Origin: Cardiobacteriaceae bacterium
Lineage (GTDB): Bacteria > Pseudomonadota > Gammaproteobacteria > Cardiobacteriales > Cardiobacteriaceae
DNA length: 64,000 nt
Assembly (NCBI GenBank): GCA_030525785.1
Contig: JAUNEA010000008.1
Location: forward strand, 1-64,000
Direction: 5' to 3'
A program made the translations under genes and the position numbers. Below are positions 5,440 through 11,339 of the stretch, in pieces; within the stretch, counting starts at the first letter, position 1, and every line of letters starts with the position of its first letter. The notes below the pieces were generated by a model. It worked only from the letters and a program-made list of their open reading frames with translations, did no database searches and had not been told where the DNA came from.

Positions 5440-5703
5440 CAAAGCGCTTTGTATCCTAGCAGGGGGAGAGGTTATCTATCTTTATTTGGGGGTTTCACCC
5501 CCAAGCCCCCACAAGGGGTGTTACACCCCTTGACCCCAGAGCATTAAAAAGTAAAACCCCCACGCAAAACAAAGTTTTGGTGGGGGTTTTACTTTTTAAA
5601 ATACTTTGCGGGGTGCAGGGGCATCATGCCCCTGCTGGGGTTCGGGGCAAAGCCCCGAGTAAAGCATAAATCACTTCCCCCTGCTAGGATACAAAGCGCT
5701 TTG
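5440..5703. repeat. Multi-hairpin inverted element bounded by CAAAGCGCTTTG, convergent gene spacer
   Basis: The ends are a 30-base near-perfect inverted repeat that starts with the genome palindrome (5440-5469 and 5674-5703). Inside lie two arms with the same plan: a GGGGG-loop-CCCCC hairpin, then a second hairpin (AAGGGGTGT/ACACCCCTT on the left, CAGGGGCAT/ATGCCCCTG on the right). Between them is a central stem AAAAAGTAAAACCCCCAC/GTGGGGGTTTTACTTTTT. The central stem should terminate transcription in both directions, as needed between the convergent deoD and cheX. A second full copy at 61739 has the same core but different outer repeats. Confidence 0.85.
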
Positions 5704-6153
5704 TTATTTCAAGAGAGCGACAACAACAGCGGCTTCGCGTCCACGCCAGCTAAGAGGAATAACGAATGAGCGGTCACGGCGAGGGAGGATAACTTCATCA
5801 GGAGCGCCACGAATCACGATAGGCACAGAGATTTCAAATTCATCACCGAGTTCGCTACGAGCATTACCAGCGATAGTGTTAGCGACTTCGCCAACAAGGT
5901 CAATCATCATTTCTTCACTGAGGTTGTTTTCACCAATCCAAATCAGCATACGTTCGAGCAAATCTTTAGGAGCAGTGAAATAGACCACCCCCTTATAAGC
6001 GCCAGAGATGGTAATCATACCTGTGTAATCTTTAGCAGTGGGTACGCTATTGGAAACCAAATAAGAGGTACCAATGCTTAATTCCTCATCGGCGATTTGT
6101 TCGAAATATTTTTTCGCACCGAGTACGAAAATCTGCAATTTATCTTCTGTCAT
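5704..6153 (-). CDS. cheX: CheX-like response-regulator phosphatase
   Basis: A 149-residue CheX/CheC-family protein. It carries the phosphatase signature around GEVANTIAGNARSEL, with the Glu (89) and Asn (92) of the E-x-x-N active site. Family members remove phosphate from CheY-type regulators. It is the last gene of a minus-strand run, 11 bases after a CheY-like gene and downstream of a CheA-like kinase, so it very likely resets that pathway. No flagellar or methyl-accepting chemotaxis genes are in the window, so the output may not be flagellar chemotaxis. Confidence 0.85.
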   Translation of the reverse strand: MTEDKLQIFVLGAKKYFEQIADEELSIGTSYLVSNSVPTAKDYTGMITISGAYKGVVYFTAPKDLLERMLIWIGENNLSEEMMIDLVGEVANTIAGNARSELGDEFEISVPIVIRGAPDEVILPRRDRSFVIPLSWRGREAAVVVALLK

Positions 6154-6164
6154 GCTTATCCCCC

Positions 6165-6530
6165 CTATTTGTTGCTAATCAATTTGCTTAAAGCCAATAC
6201 CAATTGTTCTTCAGTAAAGGGTTTGCAAATGAAGCCACGAGCGCCATATTGAAGCGCTTTGAGTCCTGTTTTACGATCAGACAAAGCAGAAACGACCAAA
6301 ATACTCACATCTTGGCTCAATGCCCAAATTTGCTGAATGCATTCTAAACCATCGACTTTAGGCATGGTCAAATCCATCGTAATCAAATCAGGCTTATGCT
6401 CTTTAAATAAACGTAAAGCATCTTCACCATTGCCAGCTGTTGCCACCACTTCAATTTGCAAATCTTGTAAGCTTCGTTCAATACGATTCCGAATGATGTT
6501 GGAATCATCTACAATCATAAGTTTATACAC
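6165..6530 (-). CDS. Single-domain CheY-like response regulator
   Basis: A 121-residue receiver domain with no output domain. The acidic pair is Asp8 and Asp9, the phospho-acceptor Asp53 lies in TMDLTMPKVDG, the conserved Thr position is Ser81, and Lys103 is in the CKPF motif. The likely phosphodonor is the kinase encoded 84 bases upstream and the likely phosphatase is the CheX downstream. The spacer to the kinase holds two palindrome copies about 22 bases apart. The partner of the phosphorylated form cannot be told from sequence. Confidence 0.92.
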   Translation of the reverse strand: MYKLMIVDDSNIIRNRIERSLQDLQIEVVATAGNGEDALRLFKEHKPDLITMDLTMPKVDGLECIQQIWALSQDVSILVVSALSDRKTGLKALQYGARGFICKPFTEEQLVLALSKLISNK

Positions 6531-6614
6531 GGTTTATCCTTATTAATCTTAGTATTATGGAGGATTTTACCAAAGCGCTTTGAAATCTCAAGGTCAAAGC
6601 GCTTTGGGGAAGAT

Positions 6615-8846
6615 TTAAATGCTTTTCGGGAACACGAATTTAAAGCGTGTGAACTGCTCAGGCTGAGAAGAGATACTAATCTTACCACCCATGCTTTGTA
6701 GGTTGGCTTTGATAATATCCATACCAACGCCACGACCAGCATCTTCGGTTTGTTCTTTTGCCGTTGAGAAGCCACTGCTGAAAATGGCATTGAGTAAAGT
6801 GCGTTTATCCAGTTTTGCACCCTCTTCGGCCGAAACCAATCCTTTTTCAATCATTTTACGGCGAATGGTTTCATAATTGATGCCATTGCCATCATCTTCC
6901 GCTTCCATCACCAAAGAGCCATCGCTCATACGAACCAAAGTCAACTTGATGATACCGTTATCTGATTTATTGCGTTCACGACGTTGTTGTGGGTTTTCGA
7001 TGCCATGCACAATTGAGTTACGCAGAATTTGTAACGCAATTTCTTTAAGCTTGGTTTGCATATTGGCACTCAAATAGCCCTCATCAAAGCCATCGCAAAT
7101 CAAGGTGACTTCTTTACCAACGCGTTTTGCAATATCTTGTACGAATTGCTTGAAGTAATCGCTATTGGTGTTGCGGCTACCTTCGCGAGAAGGCGAGCCA
7201 ATAGAAGAGGCTAAACTTGCTGCCTCACCTTGATTCAATCGGCGGTTGTAACCTTCGAGAACGTCAAACAAGCGGAACAAATCTTCCAACATAACCACAA
7301 GCTGTAAGAAGTCTTGTCCACGTAAGATTTGCATATTACGCATTTTATCAAGAGCTTCTTCGAACTGTTCGCAGATATTTACCATGCGGTTCAGTTTAAT
7401 CGATGATGCCTCACCTTTAATGCTATGCACCAAACGGGCAATATAATTGACTTTCTCTTTCAGCTCACGTTGATTAGAATTTTGAGATTTCAACGCCAAG
7501 TTCACATCATTCAAACGTGCCACACTGTCGTTGATGAAGTTGGTTAAAACGGTTGGGTTGGTTTGCAAGATGATGTTCAACATTTCAATCTCGCGACCTT
7601 CTTGCTCACGCTGCATATCTTGTGAAGATTGGAGCATCACAATTTCTGTGGTATCCACCACGTTCACCAACACCCGAGAAATCACACTATCGATGATAAC
7701 GCGGAAGAATTTGAAGTCGAGATAACGATCAACACCATTATCTGTTTTAACATTAACACGGCTCAAAGGGTTTAAGTCTTCAATCAGATTTTCTACTACC
7801 CATGTGGAATAGAGCTGGTCAATGAATACTTTTGTGGTTTCAACTTCCTCTTCAGGCACTAATTTGGTTAAGACATCAATCAAGTTTTTACCACCCAAAT
7901 CTCTCTGACCAATAATATCTTCTAAGCGAGCAGAGTATTGGTTACCAATCACCAAATCACGATCCACCAAGAAAAGACCTTCATTTACTGAACTCATGAT
8001 TTCAGACATCTCACGGTTAGCGATGTCGAGCAATTTATCGTTACGGAGCAACTGACGCAATGCACCAAATACAATCAAGAGGAAGAGGGCAAAAGCTGCT
8101 CCCAAACCAATCATCTGGATTTGTTCGAATTTTTTTGATTTAACAATCAATTCATCTTGCAAGGCTGAGTGAATCAAACCAACTTCAAACTGCAATGGGT
8201 CAATATAGTTACGCGCGTATTGCAACACATATTCAGAAGTACGCAAGTTCAAAATCCCTTGACGGTTTTCAGCCATCAAGCTATCAATCAAGCCTTTGAA
8301 CAAGTTCCAAGTATTCAAGATGGTATGAATACTTTCATGCGCAGCGAATTCTTCTGGAATTGCTTGAACTTCCACATGGTCAGAAGTGAATACCCCTTGA
8401 ATCTCACCACCTTCGTGGAAGGCATCAATCGCCACTTGGAAGTCTTTGTTGTATTGCACCAACTCCACCAAACGATACTGAACCGCCTGAGGCAAAGCGC
8501 TTATTTCCGCCCAGTCAGAATCAGGGTCTTTTTTGATTTCATCTTGCAGATAGATATGAATATCCATCAAGTTTTTAGCGATACGTTGCAAGGTAATCGT
8601 TTGCTGCTCTACTGCCTGCGCAACGAAAGAATCCCGAACCAATTCTTGTGAGTTACGGGTACTCATCAAAATCATACTAACCGTCAAGCCAAGGAAGAGC
8701 ACAACGTAAATAATCAAACTTAAATATTTACGCCAACCACCACGACTCACCTTTTTCCCCGCTGATACTTTTTGAGGCTTCACCGCAGGTTTGGGTGGCT
8801 GAGCTTTTTTACTCGGCTTAGCCTTTTCAGATTTCTTTTTAATCAT
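6615..8846 (-). CDS. Membrane-bound CheA-like histidine kinase with HPt domain
   Basis: 743 residues. A Lys/Pro-rich cytoplasmic tail (1-38) is followed by a membrane segment (41-61), a periplasmic region of about 180 residues, a second membrane segment (246-264) and a PAS-like region (280-400). An HPt domain follows with phospho-acceptor His474 in RLVHSIKGEAS, then a CheA-type ATPase (N box LRNSIVHGIE near 608, DDGNGI near 651, GRGVGMD near 704). The CheA dimerisation and CheW-binding domains are not evident, so it is not a standard chemotaxis kinase. Its neighbours are CheY-like and CheX genes downstream and a sugar-binding lipoprotein upstream, suggesting that a periplasmic ligand-protein complex is the input. 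Confidence 0.88.
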   Translation of the reverse strand: MIKKKSEKAKPSKKAQPPKPAVKPQKVSAGKKVSRGGWRKYLSLIIYVVLFLGLTVSMILMSTRNSQELVRDSFVAQAVEQQTITLQRIAKNLMDIHIYLQDEIKKDPDSDWAEISALPQAVQYRLVELVQYNKDFQVAIDAFHEGGEIQGVFTSDHVEVQAIPEEFAAHESIHTILNTWNLFKGLIDSLMAENRQGILNLRTSEYVLQYARNYIDPLQFEVGLIHSALQDELIVKSKKFEQIQMIGLGAAFALFLLIVFGALRQLLRNDKLLDIANREMSEIMSSVNEGLFLVDRDLVIGNQYSARLEDIIGQRDLGGKNLIDVLTKLVPEEEVETTKVFIDQLYSTWVVENLIEDLNPLSRVNVKTDNGVDRYLDFKFFRVIIDSVISRVLVNVVDTTEIVMLQSSQDMQREQEGREIEMLNIILQTNPTVLTNFINDSVARLNDVNLALKSQNSNQRELKEKVNYIARLVHSIKGEASSIKLNRMVNICEQFEEALDKMRNMQILRGQDFLQLVVMLEDLFRLFDVLEGYNRRLNQGEAASLASSIGSPSREGSRNTNSDYFKQFVQDIAKRVGKEVTLICDGFDEGYLSANMQTKLKEIALQILRNSIVHGIENPQQRRERNKSDNGIIKLTLVRMSDGSLVMEAEDDGNGINYETIRRKMIEKGLVSAEEGAKLDKRTLLNAIFSSGFSTAKEQTEDAGRGVGMDIIKANLQSMGGKISISSQPEQFTRFKFVFPKSI

Positions 8847-8921
8847 ATAAATTACCTAATTAGATGCCTCACCTGAGCCTCTTTCGAAAATCTCATGGTG
8901 AGAAAGTTAACGAAAAAATCC

Positions 8922-9956
8922 TTAATTTTTTAAGTACTGGCGATAATTATCTTGATTTACATCTTGATAACGCACTTTCACCACCCGATTTTGCAATGGA
9001 TAATTAATGCCTTCCATCACAGGTTTATTGGCTGCCAAATTGCTTGCCATTTTTAATGAAATTTCGGCTTGGGTTTCACTGTCATTAAAGACTGTTCCAG
9101 CTAAATCGCCATCAAGCCAAGCTTTTAAGCCAACTTGCGTGGCATCAATACCAAACACAGGTACATGCAAGCCATGCTTTTTCAAAGCCTCCACAGCTCC
9201 CAAAGCCATCGTATCGTTATTCGCCATAATGACTTCGACTGTGTCAAATTTCTCACGCTCATTTGTAATCCAAGCGTCTACCAATTCTTGAGATTTTGCC
9301 TGCTGGAACATACCAAAATCATGGAAAACTTGATTGGTGCGGTAACTTTTCTGAGGATTGAATTCAATCGCTGCAATAGACCACTGTGTTCTCAAAGCTG
9401 CGCCTTCATGTCCAGGAATACCTTGTAACATCGCATAATCAATCACACCATCGCCATTTTTATCCCACTGCGGGTTTCGCTCCCAAGCGCGAATGACTTG
9501 CTCACCCTGTAAACGCCCACCCTCAATAGCATCACCATCAACAAAATATGCCGTTGGGCAACTACTCAAATTTGCCTCGCCAGGGCTACGGTTAAAAAAC
9601 ACGACAGGAATATTACGCCGACACAAATCACTAACCATATAAGAGCCATAAGAAACCTGCGCTAAATTCACCACAACCACGCCAGCACCTTTAGCAACAA
9701 AATCATTGATTTGTTGATTTTGAATATCTTGATTATTATCTGCGGTATCTATTAATAATTGTAAATTAGGTATTTGATTAGCCACATCAATATAAGCTTG
9801 ATATGCCGATTGGAAAAAAGGGTTGGTGGCGATACTGCTCATCGTTACCCCAACCGTTATAGGCTTAGACTCAGAATGCTCAGCAGATTGCTCCTTATCC
9901 TGACAAGCCAACAGCGCTAGCGATAAAAATGCCAACGCGCCAATCTTTTTACTCAT
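8922..9956 (-). CDS. Galactose-binding-like periplasmic lipoprotein (MglB family)
   Basis: 344 residues with a lipoprotein signal ending LALLAC, so the mature protein is lipid-anchored at Cys18. The rest is a type I periplasmic sugar-binding fold: VGVTMSSIATNPFF at the start of the first lobe, a calcium-loop motif DKNGDGVID near 170, and ANNDTMALGAVEAL plus VFGIDATQ in the second lobe. It starts after AAGGAG. No permease or ATPase lies nearby; the next gene is the membrane kinase 75 bases on. I infer a sensory or ligand-presenting role, but a transporter encoded elsewhere is possible. Confidence 0.85.
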   Translation of the reverse strand: MSKKIGALAFLSLALLACQDKEQSAEHSESKPITVGVTMSSIATNPFFQSAYQAYIDVANQIPNLQLLIDTADNNQDIQNQQINDFVAKGAGVVVVNLAQVSYGSYMVSDLCRRNIPVVFFNRSPGEANLSSCPTAYFVDGDAIEGGRLQGEQVIRAWERNPQWDKNGDGVIDYAMLQGIPGHEGAALRTQWSIAAIEFNPQKSYRTNQVFHDFGMFQQAKSQELVDAWITNEREKFDTVEVIMANNDTMALGAVEALKKHGLHVPVFGIDATQVGLKAWLDGDLAGTVFNDSETQAEISLKMASNLAANKPVMEGINYPLQNRVVKVRYQDVNQDNYRQYLKN

Positions 9957-10002
9957 AATTGTCCATTCTCCTTAACCACAAAAGCAACGGTAAATATCGT
10001 TA

Positions 10003-10263
10003 TTATACACGGAAAAGCGCTTTGTCCTGTGCATAGTTGCGCAAAAACAACACCAGCCGCTGACGCTGTGGATTTTCATCTTCCAATCGCCCAAACAATA
10101 AATCCAAAATATGGGGATCTTGGTAATGGAGCAAAGCAACAAAAGCGCTTTGCTCTTCAGCAGAAACATAGGGATAACAATGCTCTAAATAAGCTCCTAA
10201 AAGCATATCCAGCTCTTTCATTCCACGGCGAGTGCTCAACCATCGTAATTGTCTATCGTCCAT
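10003..10263 (-). CDS. sdhE: FAD assembly factor SdhE
   Basis: Small cytoplasmic protein that promotes covalent attachment of FAD to succinate dehydrogenase. The 86-residue product shows the RRGMKELD stretch (the RGxxE motif) near 12-19, then the family pattern of acidic and hydrophobic helices (LEHCYP, FVALLHYQDPHILDLLFG). The ATG at 10263 has AGGAG six bases upstream; an in-frame TTG at 10281 would place that site inside the gene. It lies between the two sugar-binding lipoprotein genes in the same direction, with no clear functional link. A palindrome copy overlaps its C-terminal codons. Confidence 0.88.
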   Translation of the reverse strand: MDDRQLRWLSTRRGMKELDMLLGAYLEHCYPYVSAEEQSAFVALLHYQDPHILDLLFGRLEDENPQRQRLVLFLRNYAQDKALFRV

Positions 10264-10322
10264 CCTATTCTCCTGCGACAAAGCGCTTTGTCTCTATTCA
10301 AGCCTAAAGATTCATGAAAAGC

Positions 10323-11339
10323 TTAACGAGCCCCTTTTACAGGTACACGAATCTCACGGTCTTTGATAGGGTAACGCAATTGATGCTCAGGGGGCAGACC
10401 GCGTGATAAGTTTTCTAAAACCAACAACGCCACACGTGTTTCTTCTCCCACGTTTGCCTCAACGGTGTAGCGGATTTCTCCACGCTCCATCGCACGTTTT
10501 GCCTCAGGCAAGGCATCAAAGCTGAAAATCGGCAAATTCACATTATTGGCTTTAAAAACTTCTAACAAACCAAATGCCATTGAATCAGAACCCGCTATCA
10601 CCAATTCTACTTCTGGGAATCGTGGGTCTTGTAACCATTCTTCTGCCACATTTCTTGCCACACTGGTTTGATAAAGCGCATGCCCTTCCAAAACCTGTTC
10701 AATATTGACCGCAACATCAGGGCTACGTGTCATGGTCTCCAATGCCCATTCGATATTATCGCCCAAGCCTGAATCCGTACGCCGTGAAGCAATAATCGCC
10801 ATCTGAATGGATTGGTCGCCATTTTTATCCCAACTTGGGTTGGATTTCCATTGTTTCAAGATTTCATTGCCCAGCACTACGCCGCCTGAGAAATCATCGG
10901 TCATAACGCGATAGGTCTTTTCACAAGAAGCCATTTCTCGCTCGCCTGGATTGGAGATATAAACCAAATGTACTTTTCCACAATAGCGAGCAATCGATTC
11001 ACCACCTCGTTTGCGCTCTACCAAATTAATCGCCAAACCTTTCGCACCTTTTTTTATCATCTCATCAAGCTGAGCAAATTGATTATCTTGGTCATTTTTG
11101 GCATCATCAATCAGAAGGCTAATTTTAGGATTTTGCTTAGCATTTTCTACAAAACCTTGATAATAAGCTTGTAAAAAAGGCGAGTTATCATCATTACGCG
11201 CGATACTAACGCCTAAGGTTACCGTATCTTGTGATTCTGTAGCTTCTTCTTTCGCTCCTTGATCAAAACAACCAGAAAGCCCCAAAATCACACCCGTAAG
11301 TCCTAAGCATTTCACCACAAAACTTTGTTTTCTATTCAT
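10323..11339 (-). CDS. Second galactose-binding-like periplasmic lipoprotein (MglB family)
   Basis: 338 residues from the ATG at 11339, chosen for its AAAGGA site; an in-frame codon at 11363 has none. The signal ends GLSGC, giving a lipidated mature protein. It has the type I sugar-binding fold, with VTLGVSIARNDDNSPF at the start, a calcium-loop-like DKNGDQSIQ near 160 and IAGSDSMAFGLLEVF in the second lobe. It is a diverged paralogue of the 8922-9956 protein. No ABC transporter genes accompany it. Two binding proteins beside one membrane kinase suggests two ligands or a receptor and co-receptor; this is inference. Confidence 0.83.
   Translation of the reverse strand: MNRKQSFVVKCLGLTGVILGLSGCFDQGAKEEATESQDTVTLGVSIARNDDNSPFLQAYYQGFVENAKQNPKISLLIDDAKNDQDNQFAQLDEMIKKGAKGLAINLVERKRGGESIARYCGKVHLVYISNPGEREMASCEKTYRVMTDDFSGGVVLGNEILKQWKSNPSWDKNGDQSIQMAIIASRRTDSGLGDNIEWALETMTRSPDVAVNIEQVLEGHALYQTSVARNVAEEWLQDPRFPEVELVIAGSDSMAFGLLEVFKANNVNLPIFSFDALPEAKRAMERGEIRYTVEANVGEETRVALLVLENLSRGLPPEHQLRYPIKDREIRVPVKGAR

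Follow-up and report, generated by a model that had tools for sequence, protein, structure and literature searches.

In the LuxP-LuxQ, TorT-TorS and ChvE-VirA systems a periplasmic protein with the fold of a binding protein (SBP) modulates a membrane kinase, and the relays include an HPt domain. These are hybrid kinases with a receiver, a separate or C-terminal HPt and a DNA-binding output; to our knowledge, none of them contains CheX. That SBPs can activate kinases is well established, and the number of characterised SBP-kinase pairs is about ten (PMC9602780). For XylFII-LytS of Clostridium beijerinckii, as summarized there, a dedicated non-transport SBP binds the extracytoplasmic domain of the kinase (Li et al. 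2017, via PMC9602780). In CuaD-CuaS-CuaR, too, the extracytoplasmic domain of the kinase is bound by a dedicated SBP, the lipoprotein CuaD, which is distinct from the SBP used in transport and is encoded next to the kinase (PMC10384115).

A similar gene arrangement was found in the window, the whole analysed stretch of 64,000 nucleotides from a Cardiobacteriaceae bacterium. An operon on the minus strand, from 11339 to 5704, encodes in this order PBP2, an SdhE-family protein, PBP1, a kinase, RecY and CheX. The features are:

10323..11339, minus strand: PBP2, MglB-family (PF13407, Peripla_BP_4) lipoprotein with lipobox LSGC (ORF, Pfam, residue map)
10003..10281, minus strand: SdhE/Sdh5-family (FAD assembly factor) gene between both lipoprotein genes (PF03937, E 3.4e-18)
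8922..9956, minus strand: PBP1, MglB-family lipoprotein (lipobox LLAC); its gene immediately precedes that of the kinase, with a gap of 75 bp
6615..8846, minus strand: transmembrane CheA-type histidine kinase, 743 aa (Pfam/NCBIfam, PDB profile search, Foldseek)
8007..8741, minus strand: periplasmic sensor and both membrane helices of the kinase (residues 36-280), PilJ/NarQ-like helical bundle with lost N-box (AF2, Foldseek, hhalign)
7425..7427, minus strand: codon of the HPt phosphorylation site His474 (motif HSIKGEAS), invariant in 10 kinases
6165..6530, minus strand: RecY, lone CheY-like receiver of 121 aa with acceptor Asp53 and without output domain (Pfam Response_reg, 3.2e-30)
5704..6153, minus strand: predicted CheX-type phosphatase (PF13690) with ExxN motif Glu89, Asn92
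5544..5599, no strand assigned: likely bidirectional terminator, a strong inverted repeat whose ends are rich in A/T, in the gap separating the operon end from deoD

The initial annotation had named two MglB-like lipoproteins, a kinase, a lone receiver and CheX. All are intact minus-strand ORFs with Pfam support, but the SdhE gene (10281-10003) between the lipoproteins had been omitted. The Peripla_BP_4 E-values are 9.6e-28 for PBP2 and 2.4e-40 for PBP1. CheX matched PF13690 with 73.6 bits against a cut-off of 27 (1.3e-20) and also solved CheC/CheX-like structures; Glu89 and Asn92 of the catalytic ExxN motif were read from the sequence of this predicted phosphatase. The SdhE gene has an ordinary housekeeping function and is probably not part of the sensor. 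Because of its position, only PBP1 is encoded directly upstream of the kinase, and PBP2, set apart from PBP1, has a putative role in the system. A nucleoside was considered as ligand because of the downstream genes deoA, deoC, cdd, nupC and deoD and was rejected: these genes are convergent, lie behind the likely terminator and are not conserved beside the kinase elsewhere. Independently of the operon, the window (1-64000) contains 77 copies of the palindrome CAAAGCGCTTTG, versus 0.04 expected. Its sites, among them 5440, 5692, 6571, 6595, 10279 and 11404, are both intergenic and genic, and inside ORFs it encodes KRFG and QSALC peptides. It resembles the highly iterated palindrome HIP1, and a role in uptake, in methylation or of another sort is conceivable.

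With a probability of about 0.7 we read the operon as a sensor of the three-component type, in which an SBP is paired with a CheA-type kinase and RecY and CheX form the output. The SBP gene is co-localised with those of a membrane kinase and a regulator, as in three-component systems. In the periplasm the lipid-anchored PBP1, and perhaps PBP2, would bind a small polar ligand and dock on the PilJ/NarQ-like helical domain of the kinase. Once the binding protein has docked or closed, kinase activity may be altered via the PAS-like region. The CheA-type ATPase would phosphorylate His474 of the kinase's own HPt, from where the phosphate would pass to Asp53 of RecY; CheX would keep the RecY-P signal short-lived, and RecY presumably has a protein, not DNA, as its binding target. 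The reading is built on domains, catalytic residues, gene order, sensor homology, N-box loss and the co-divergence of SBP and sensor. From these we infer docking, ligand, direction of kinase control, phosphotransfer to RecY, resetting by CheX and the target of RecY.

The catalytic part of the kinase consists of an HPt domain (residues 433-512, PF01627, 8.1e-10) and a HATPase_c domain (residues 598-741, 1.4e-13). His474 is invariant across ten kinase relatives, and the PDB profile search returned CheA P3-P4 and P4 (4xiv/1i58) at about 1e-44. CheA P3-P4 and P4 were also matched by Foldseek with the kinase model (TM up to 0.86 by target, for CheA P4). Thus, the HPt with His474 and the CheA-type ATPase of the initial annotation could be confirmed. 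Its PAS-like region is backed by weak, sub-threshold PAS matches in relatives and by an alpha/beta domain in the structure model, but no Pfam match was obtained for the window kinase itself. The protein ends after HATPase_c, and a P5/CheW-like domain is absent according to Pfam, as had been claimed. A domain survey reported the P5/CheW domain for every CheA (PMC10542144). Furthermore, no CheW domain, no MCP signalling domain or chemoreceptor and no FliM/N domain were detected anywhere in the genome assembly (94% complete), in line with the earlier statement that a chemoreceptor is missing. Judged by sequence, a kinase without P5 in a genome without these parts is CheA-like in chemistry, but not CheA by the definition of that survey.

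The kinase shares with CheA the HPt (P1), the CheA-type P4 ATPase and presumably the phosphorylation of a CheY-like protein; it differs by the missing P5/CheW domain and by its own membrane sensor. An ordinary chemotaxis kinase of a chemosensory array that has been truncated would likewise match CheA in sequence and fold in P1/HPt and the P3-P4-type ATPase. This explanation is hardly credible, as it leaves the transmembrane sensor and the genome without CheW, MCP and FliM/N unaccounted for, and an architecture conserved in dozens of loci is not a truncation. As a separate observation, the family members G001-G005 and G007 (L030-L032, L035, L037, L038) have very large ChpA/PilL-like open frames of 2557-3658 aa with a CheA-type ATPase, whereas the window genome is without any CheW domain.

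The assembly comprises 18 contigs with 1.62 Mb and is 93.7% complete; hence, about 6% may be missing. Five MglC-type (BPD_transp_2) permeases are encoded, each system with its own SBP: RbsB-like (contigs 9 and 12), branched-chain/urea-type (contig 11, Peripla_BP_6) and ABC_sub_bind-like (contig 9). In this assembly no MglA/MglC-type transporter is left unpaired for PBP1 or PBP2, which agrees with the absence of a transporter postulated before. Four orphan MglB-like lipoproteins remain, PBP1, PBP2, L053 and L054. The genome encodes two paralogous kinases, one on contig 15 and one on contig 11. A lone receiver gene comes after each of them, and in one case a CheX gene as well. Internal stops flagged in these paralogues turned out to be end-of-frame effects; the ORFs are intact.

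While a scan of genome contigs with a single sequence revealed no kinase relatives, 80 named loci were collected with an alignment query. RecY adjoins the kinase in all 80, and CheX follows within 1.5 kb after 60 of 81 kinases. An MglB-type lipoprotein is encoded directly upstream of the kinase in 13/80 loci (Neisseriaceae, Moraxella, Rappaport). A SBP_bac_3 lipoprotein of unrelated fold occupies the same slot in 42/80, mostly in Psychrobacter, but also in Neisseriaceae and Moraxella oblonga. No SBP lies directly upstream in 25/80, and in L078 the MglB-type lipoprotein gene is divergent from the kinase. The order SBP-kinase-RecY was found in the Cardiobacteriaceae genomes G005, G009, G010 and G011 and in Moraxella and Neisseriaceae. 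In the conserved loci the SBPs have lipobox signal sequences, and the gaps to the kinase are 11-68 bp. The SBP gene of G005 is divergent, and G009 and G010 carry three and four MglB-like copies that are apparently secreted, not lipidated. At L046 (2986-8480) and L047 (5854-9366) the kinase gene is preceded by three to four MglB-like genes in tandem, whose apparently secreted, non-lipidated products have conserved CC motifs near the N-terminus. In Rappaport israeli (G011, L115; Cardiobacteriaceae in the NCBI taxonomy) the kinase is intact and the linked MglB-like gene lies in two frames (L044 7485-8500, also L115), being either a pseudogene or the result of a sequencing error. No SBP was found beside the own paralogous kinases (contigs 11 and 15) or beside those of G004, G007 and G008.

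Since the gene order is conserved across genera, chance is ruled out. This order and the lack of an unpaired MglA/MglC-type transporter had both been set beforehand as tests that could refute the initial annotation, and its core idea, binding proteins that present a ligand to the kinase without a transporter, stands; it is partly supported, docking and phosphotransfer being putative. As two unrelated SBP families fill one slot, what is selected there is the presence of an SBP, irrespective of gene family. The kinase family is present in 12 of 369 sampled genomes of Gammaproteobacteria. Mapped on the kinase tree, the MglB label requires 6 changes; thus, the SBP-kinase pairing was lost or gained repeatedly. 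Like the paralogous kinases without an adjacent SBP, this speaks against the three-component reading. No output gene recurs near the kinase-RecY-CheX triad among the loci. Only sporadic neighbours were seen: in L173 (10113-11357) the triad is followed by a fusion of receiver and Ser/Thr protein kinase, on which RecY-type signalling might act downstream, and in L175 a PP2C-Ser/Thr kinase occurs nearby.

The family, the Ca-binding loop and part of the sugar-contact set are common to the PBPs and the glucose/galactose transport SBP MglB. They differ by the lipid anchor, the absence of mglAC, the changed D14, D154 and W183 and their position in a separate clade. All ten sugar contacts are present in the transporter MglBs (E. 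coli; G282, where mglAC lies next to gal genes). PBP1 retains 7/10 (D14T, D154G and W183F are changed), and PBP2 retains 3/10 and the Ca-loop, with the equivalents of H152, R158, N211 and N256 lost. Both miss the NCBIfam PRK15395 equivalog cut-off of 420 bits (PBP1 261, PBP2 168.7 bits). In the tree, L078 falls among the transporter proteins and the G010 copies branch separately, but most kinase-linked MglB-like proteins form one clade of their own (90/98). D14, D154 and W183 are changed throughout this clade, except for D14 in the own paralogues. These altered contacts suggest that the ligand of PBP1 may not be glucose or galactose, though a small and sugar-like one is plausible. H152, R158, N211, D236 and N256 are common to PBP1 and the Moraxella proteins L077, L079, L080, L081 and L083; the sole contact difference is T/S at position 14. 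This near-identical set of ten residues suggests a conserved ligand. PBP2 may bind something else or nothing. Hence, the sugar-sensing proposed in the initial annotation agrees with the MglB family, but a sugar is not secured, as PBP1 differs at 3/10 and PBP2 at 7/10 contacts from transporter MglB.

The losses in PBP2 would also fit lipoproteins that have given up ligand binding and, whether ligand is present or not, serve as accessory or scaffold to inhibit or hold the kinase, or report the state of the envelope. This is quite improbable in view of the seven contacts kept in PBP1 and their conservation in Moraxella.

For the periplasmic sensor claimed before, no Pfam match, including PF13675 (PilJ), was obtained in the window kinase or in the SBP-linked kinases. 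However, alignable relatives from Cellvibrio and Spongiibacteraceae match PF13675 at 1e-10 to 1e-12, and hhalign aligned the profile of SBP-linked sensors with these relatives over the full length (P 99.9%, E 2e-37). The sensor-only AlphaFold2 model reached a pLDDT of 94.7. With this model Foldseek gave PcaY and the nitrate sensor NarQ as plausible PDB sensor matches of modest significance (NarQ: E 0.005, TM about 0.5). By profile and predicted structure, the domain is a PilJ/NarQ-like helical bundle, and the claim of a periplasmic sensor holds. NarX/NarQ and McpN also possess helical-bundle periplasmic sensors, and homologous Cellvibrio kinases have both PF13675 and the nitrate N-box. In contrast, this N-box, [IVL][ND]xAGxQRML[ST]Q as defined for McpN (PMC6381276), is absent from the window kinase and every SBP-linked kinase. 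The exact motif is kept in SBP-less kinases of Cellvibrio and Spongiibacteraceae and in five matches of the class survey. It is also lost in SBP-less kinases, so that N-box loss alone is no mark of SBP coupling. The triad of L175 (G269:C9:10000-25000) has an intact N-box and adjoins genes for a NirB-like reductase, an MFS transporter and a PP2C-Ser/Thr kinase fusion. It is likely a nitrate-sensing version of the module, which the reductase and MFS neighbours fit.

For PilJ/NarQ domains, direct binding of small ligands is described (PMC6381276, PMC8199190). The kinase might therefore sense a small ligand or a membrane signal by itself, with the lipoproteins sharing only its transcript and working elsewhere, e.g. 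with an unlinked or missing ABC permease. The N-box of SBP-less relatives, the 25/80 loci without SBP directly upstream and the 6% of the genome that may be missing speak for this. We consider it an unlikely but sizeable alternative, because two unrelated SBP families fill the slot, no SBP-linked kinase retains the N-box, each MglC-type permease seen comes with an SBP of its own, and the kinase-linked SBPs stand apart from transporter MglB in the tree. Furthermore, SBP divergence tracks the sensor domain specifically. In a mirror-tree test with 10-16 SBP-kinase pairs, SBP distances correlated with those of the periplasmic domain with r = 0.87 (16 pairs), versus 0.75-0.77 for HPt-ATPase, PAS and RecY. 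After removal of near-copies the values were 0.83-0.86 and 0.44-0.67, respectively. The partial correlation of SBP and sensor, given RecY and core, was 0.64-0.75, and 0 of 2000 permutations were as high. Such co-divergence is the trace expected of direct contact between SBP and sensor; shared history with rate variation could contribute.

Returning to the SBP-coupled sensor, type IV pili are a candidate target of RecY, because PilB- and PilT/PilU-like ATPases are encoded, whereas FliM/N and any GGDEF protein (diguanylate cyclase) over the cut-off are missing in the assembly. A wider reading is tentative and, in our view, falls somewhat short of even odds. The kinase, RecY and CheX would belong to a widespread and hitherto undescribed family of receptor-free CheA-type kinases, in which the ancestral PilJ sensor lost the nitrate site and became a docking platform for lipoproteins of two unrelated SBP folds. 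Nutrient identity would be set by exchangeable lipoproteins, with a CheX-reset receiver as output, perhaps towards type IV pili.

Such a CheA-type kinase would work outside any chemoreceptor array, apparently fed by exchangeable tethered binding proteins. The natural sets of kinases (with intact N-box, MglB-type, SBP_bac_3 or no partner) make the shift from direct-ligand to protein-docked sensing testable with related proteins. They also pose the question which process is under the control of a lone CheY-like receiver in mucosal bacteria that are small and lack flagella. The initial annotation knew of no described system with this set. Indeed, the open-access literature searched yielded neither an SBP with CheA-type kinase, lone receiver and CheX nor a kinase family on which two unrelated SBP families replace each other. 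As SBP-activated kinases are already established (PMC9602780, PMC10384115), only the combination of CheA-type kinase, lone receiver and CheX is new. CuaDSR is a close functional precedent, with a lipoprotein SBP beside the kinase gene as at the window locus. As far as the cited sources describe them, XylFII-LytS and CuaDSR share with this locus a dedicated SBP paired with a membrane kinase, where binding of SBP and sensor is predicted here. Both use conventional kinases and transcriptional regulators; in contrast, the kinase of the window locus is of CheA type and contains its HPt internally, it is encoded with a lone receiver and CheX, and no transport operon lies beside the locus.
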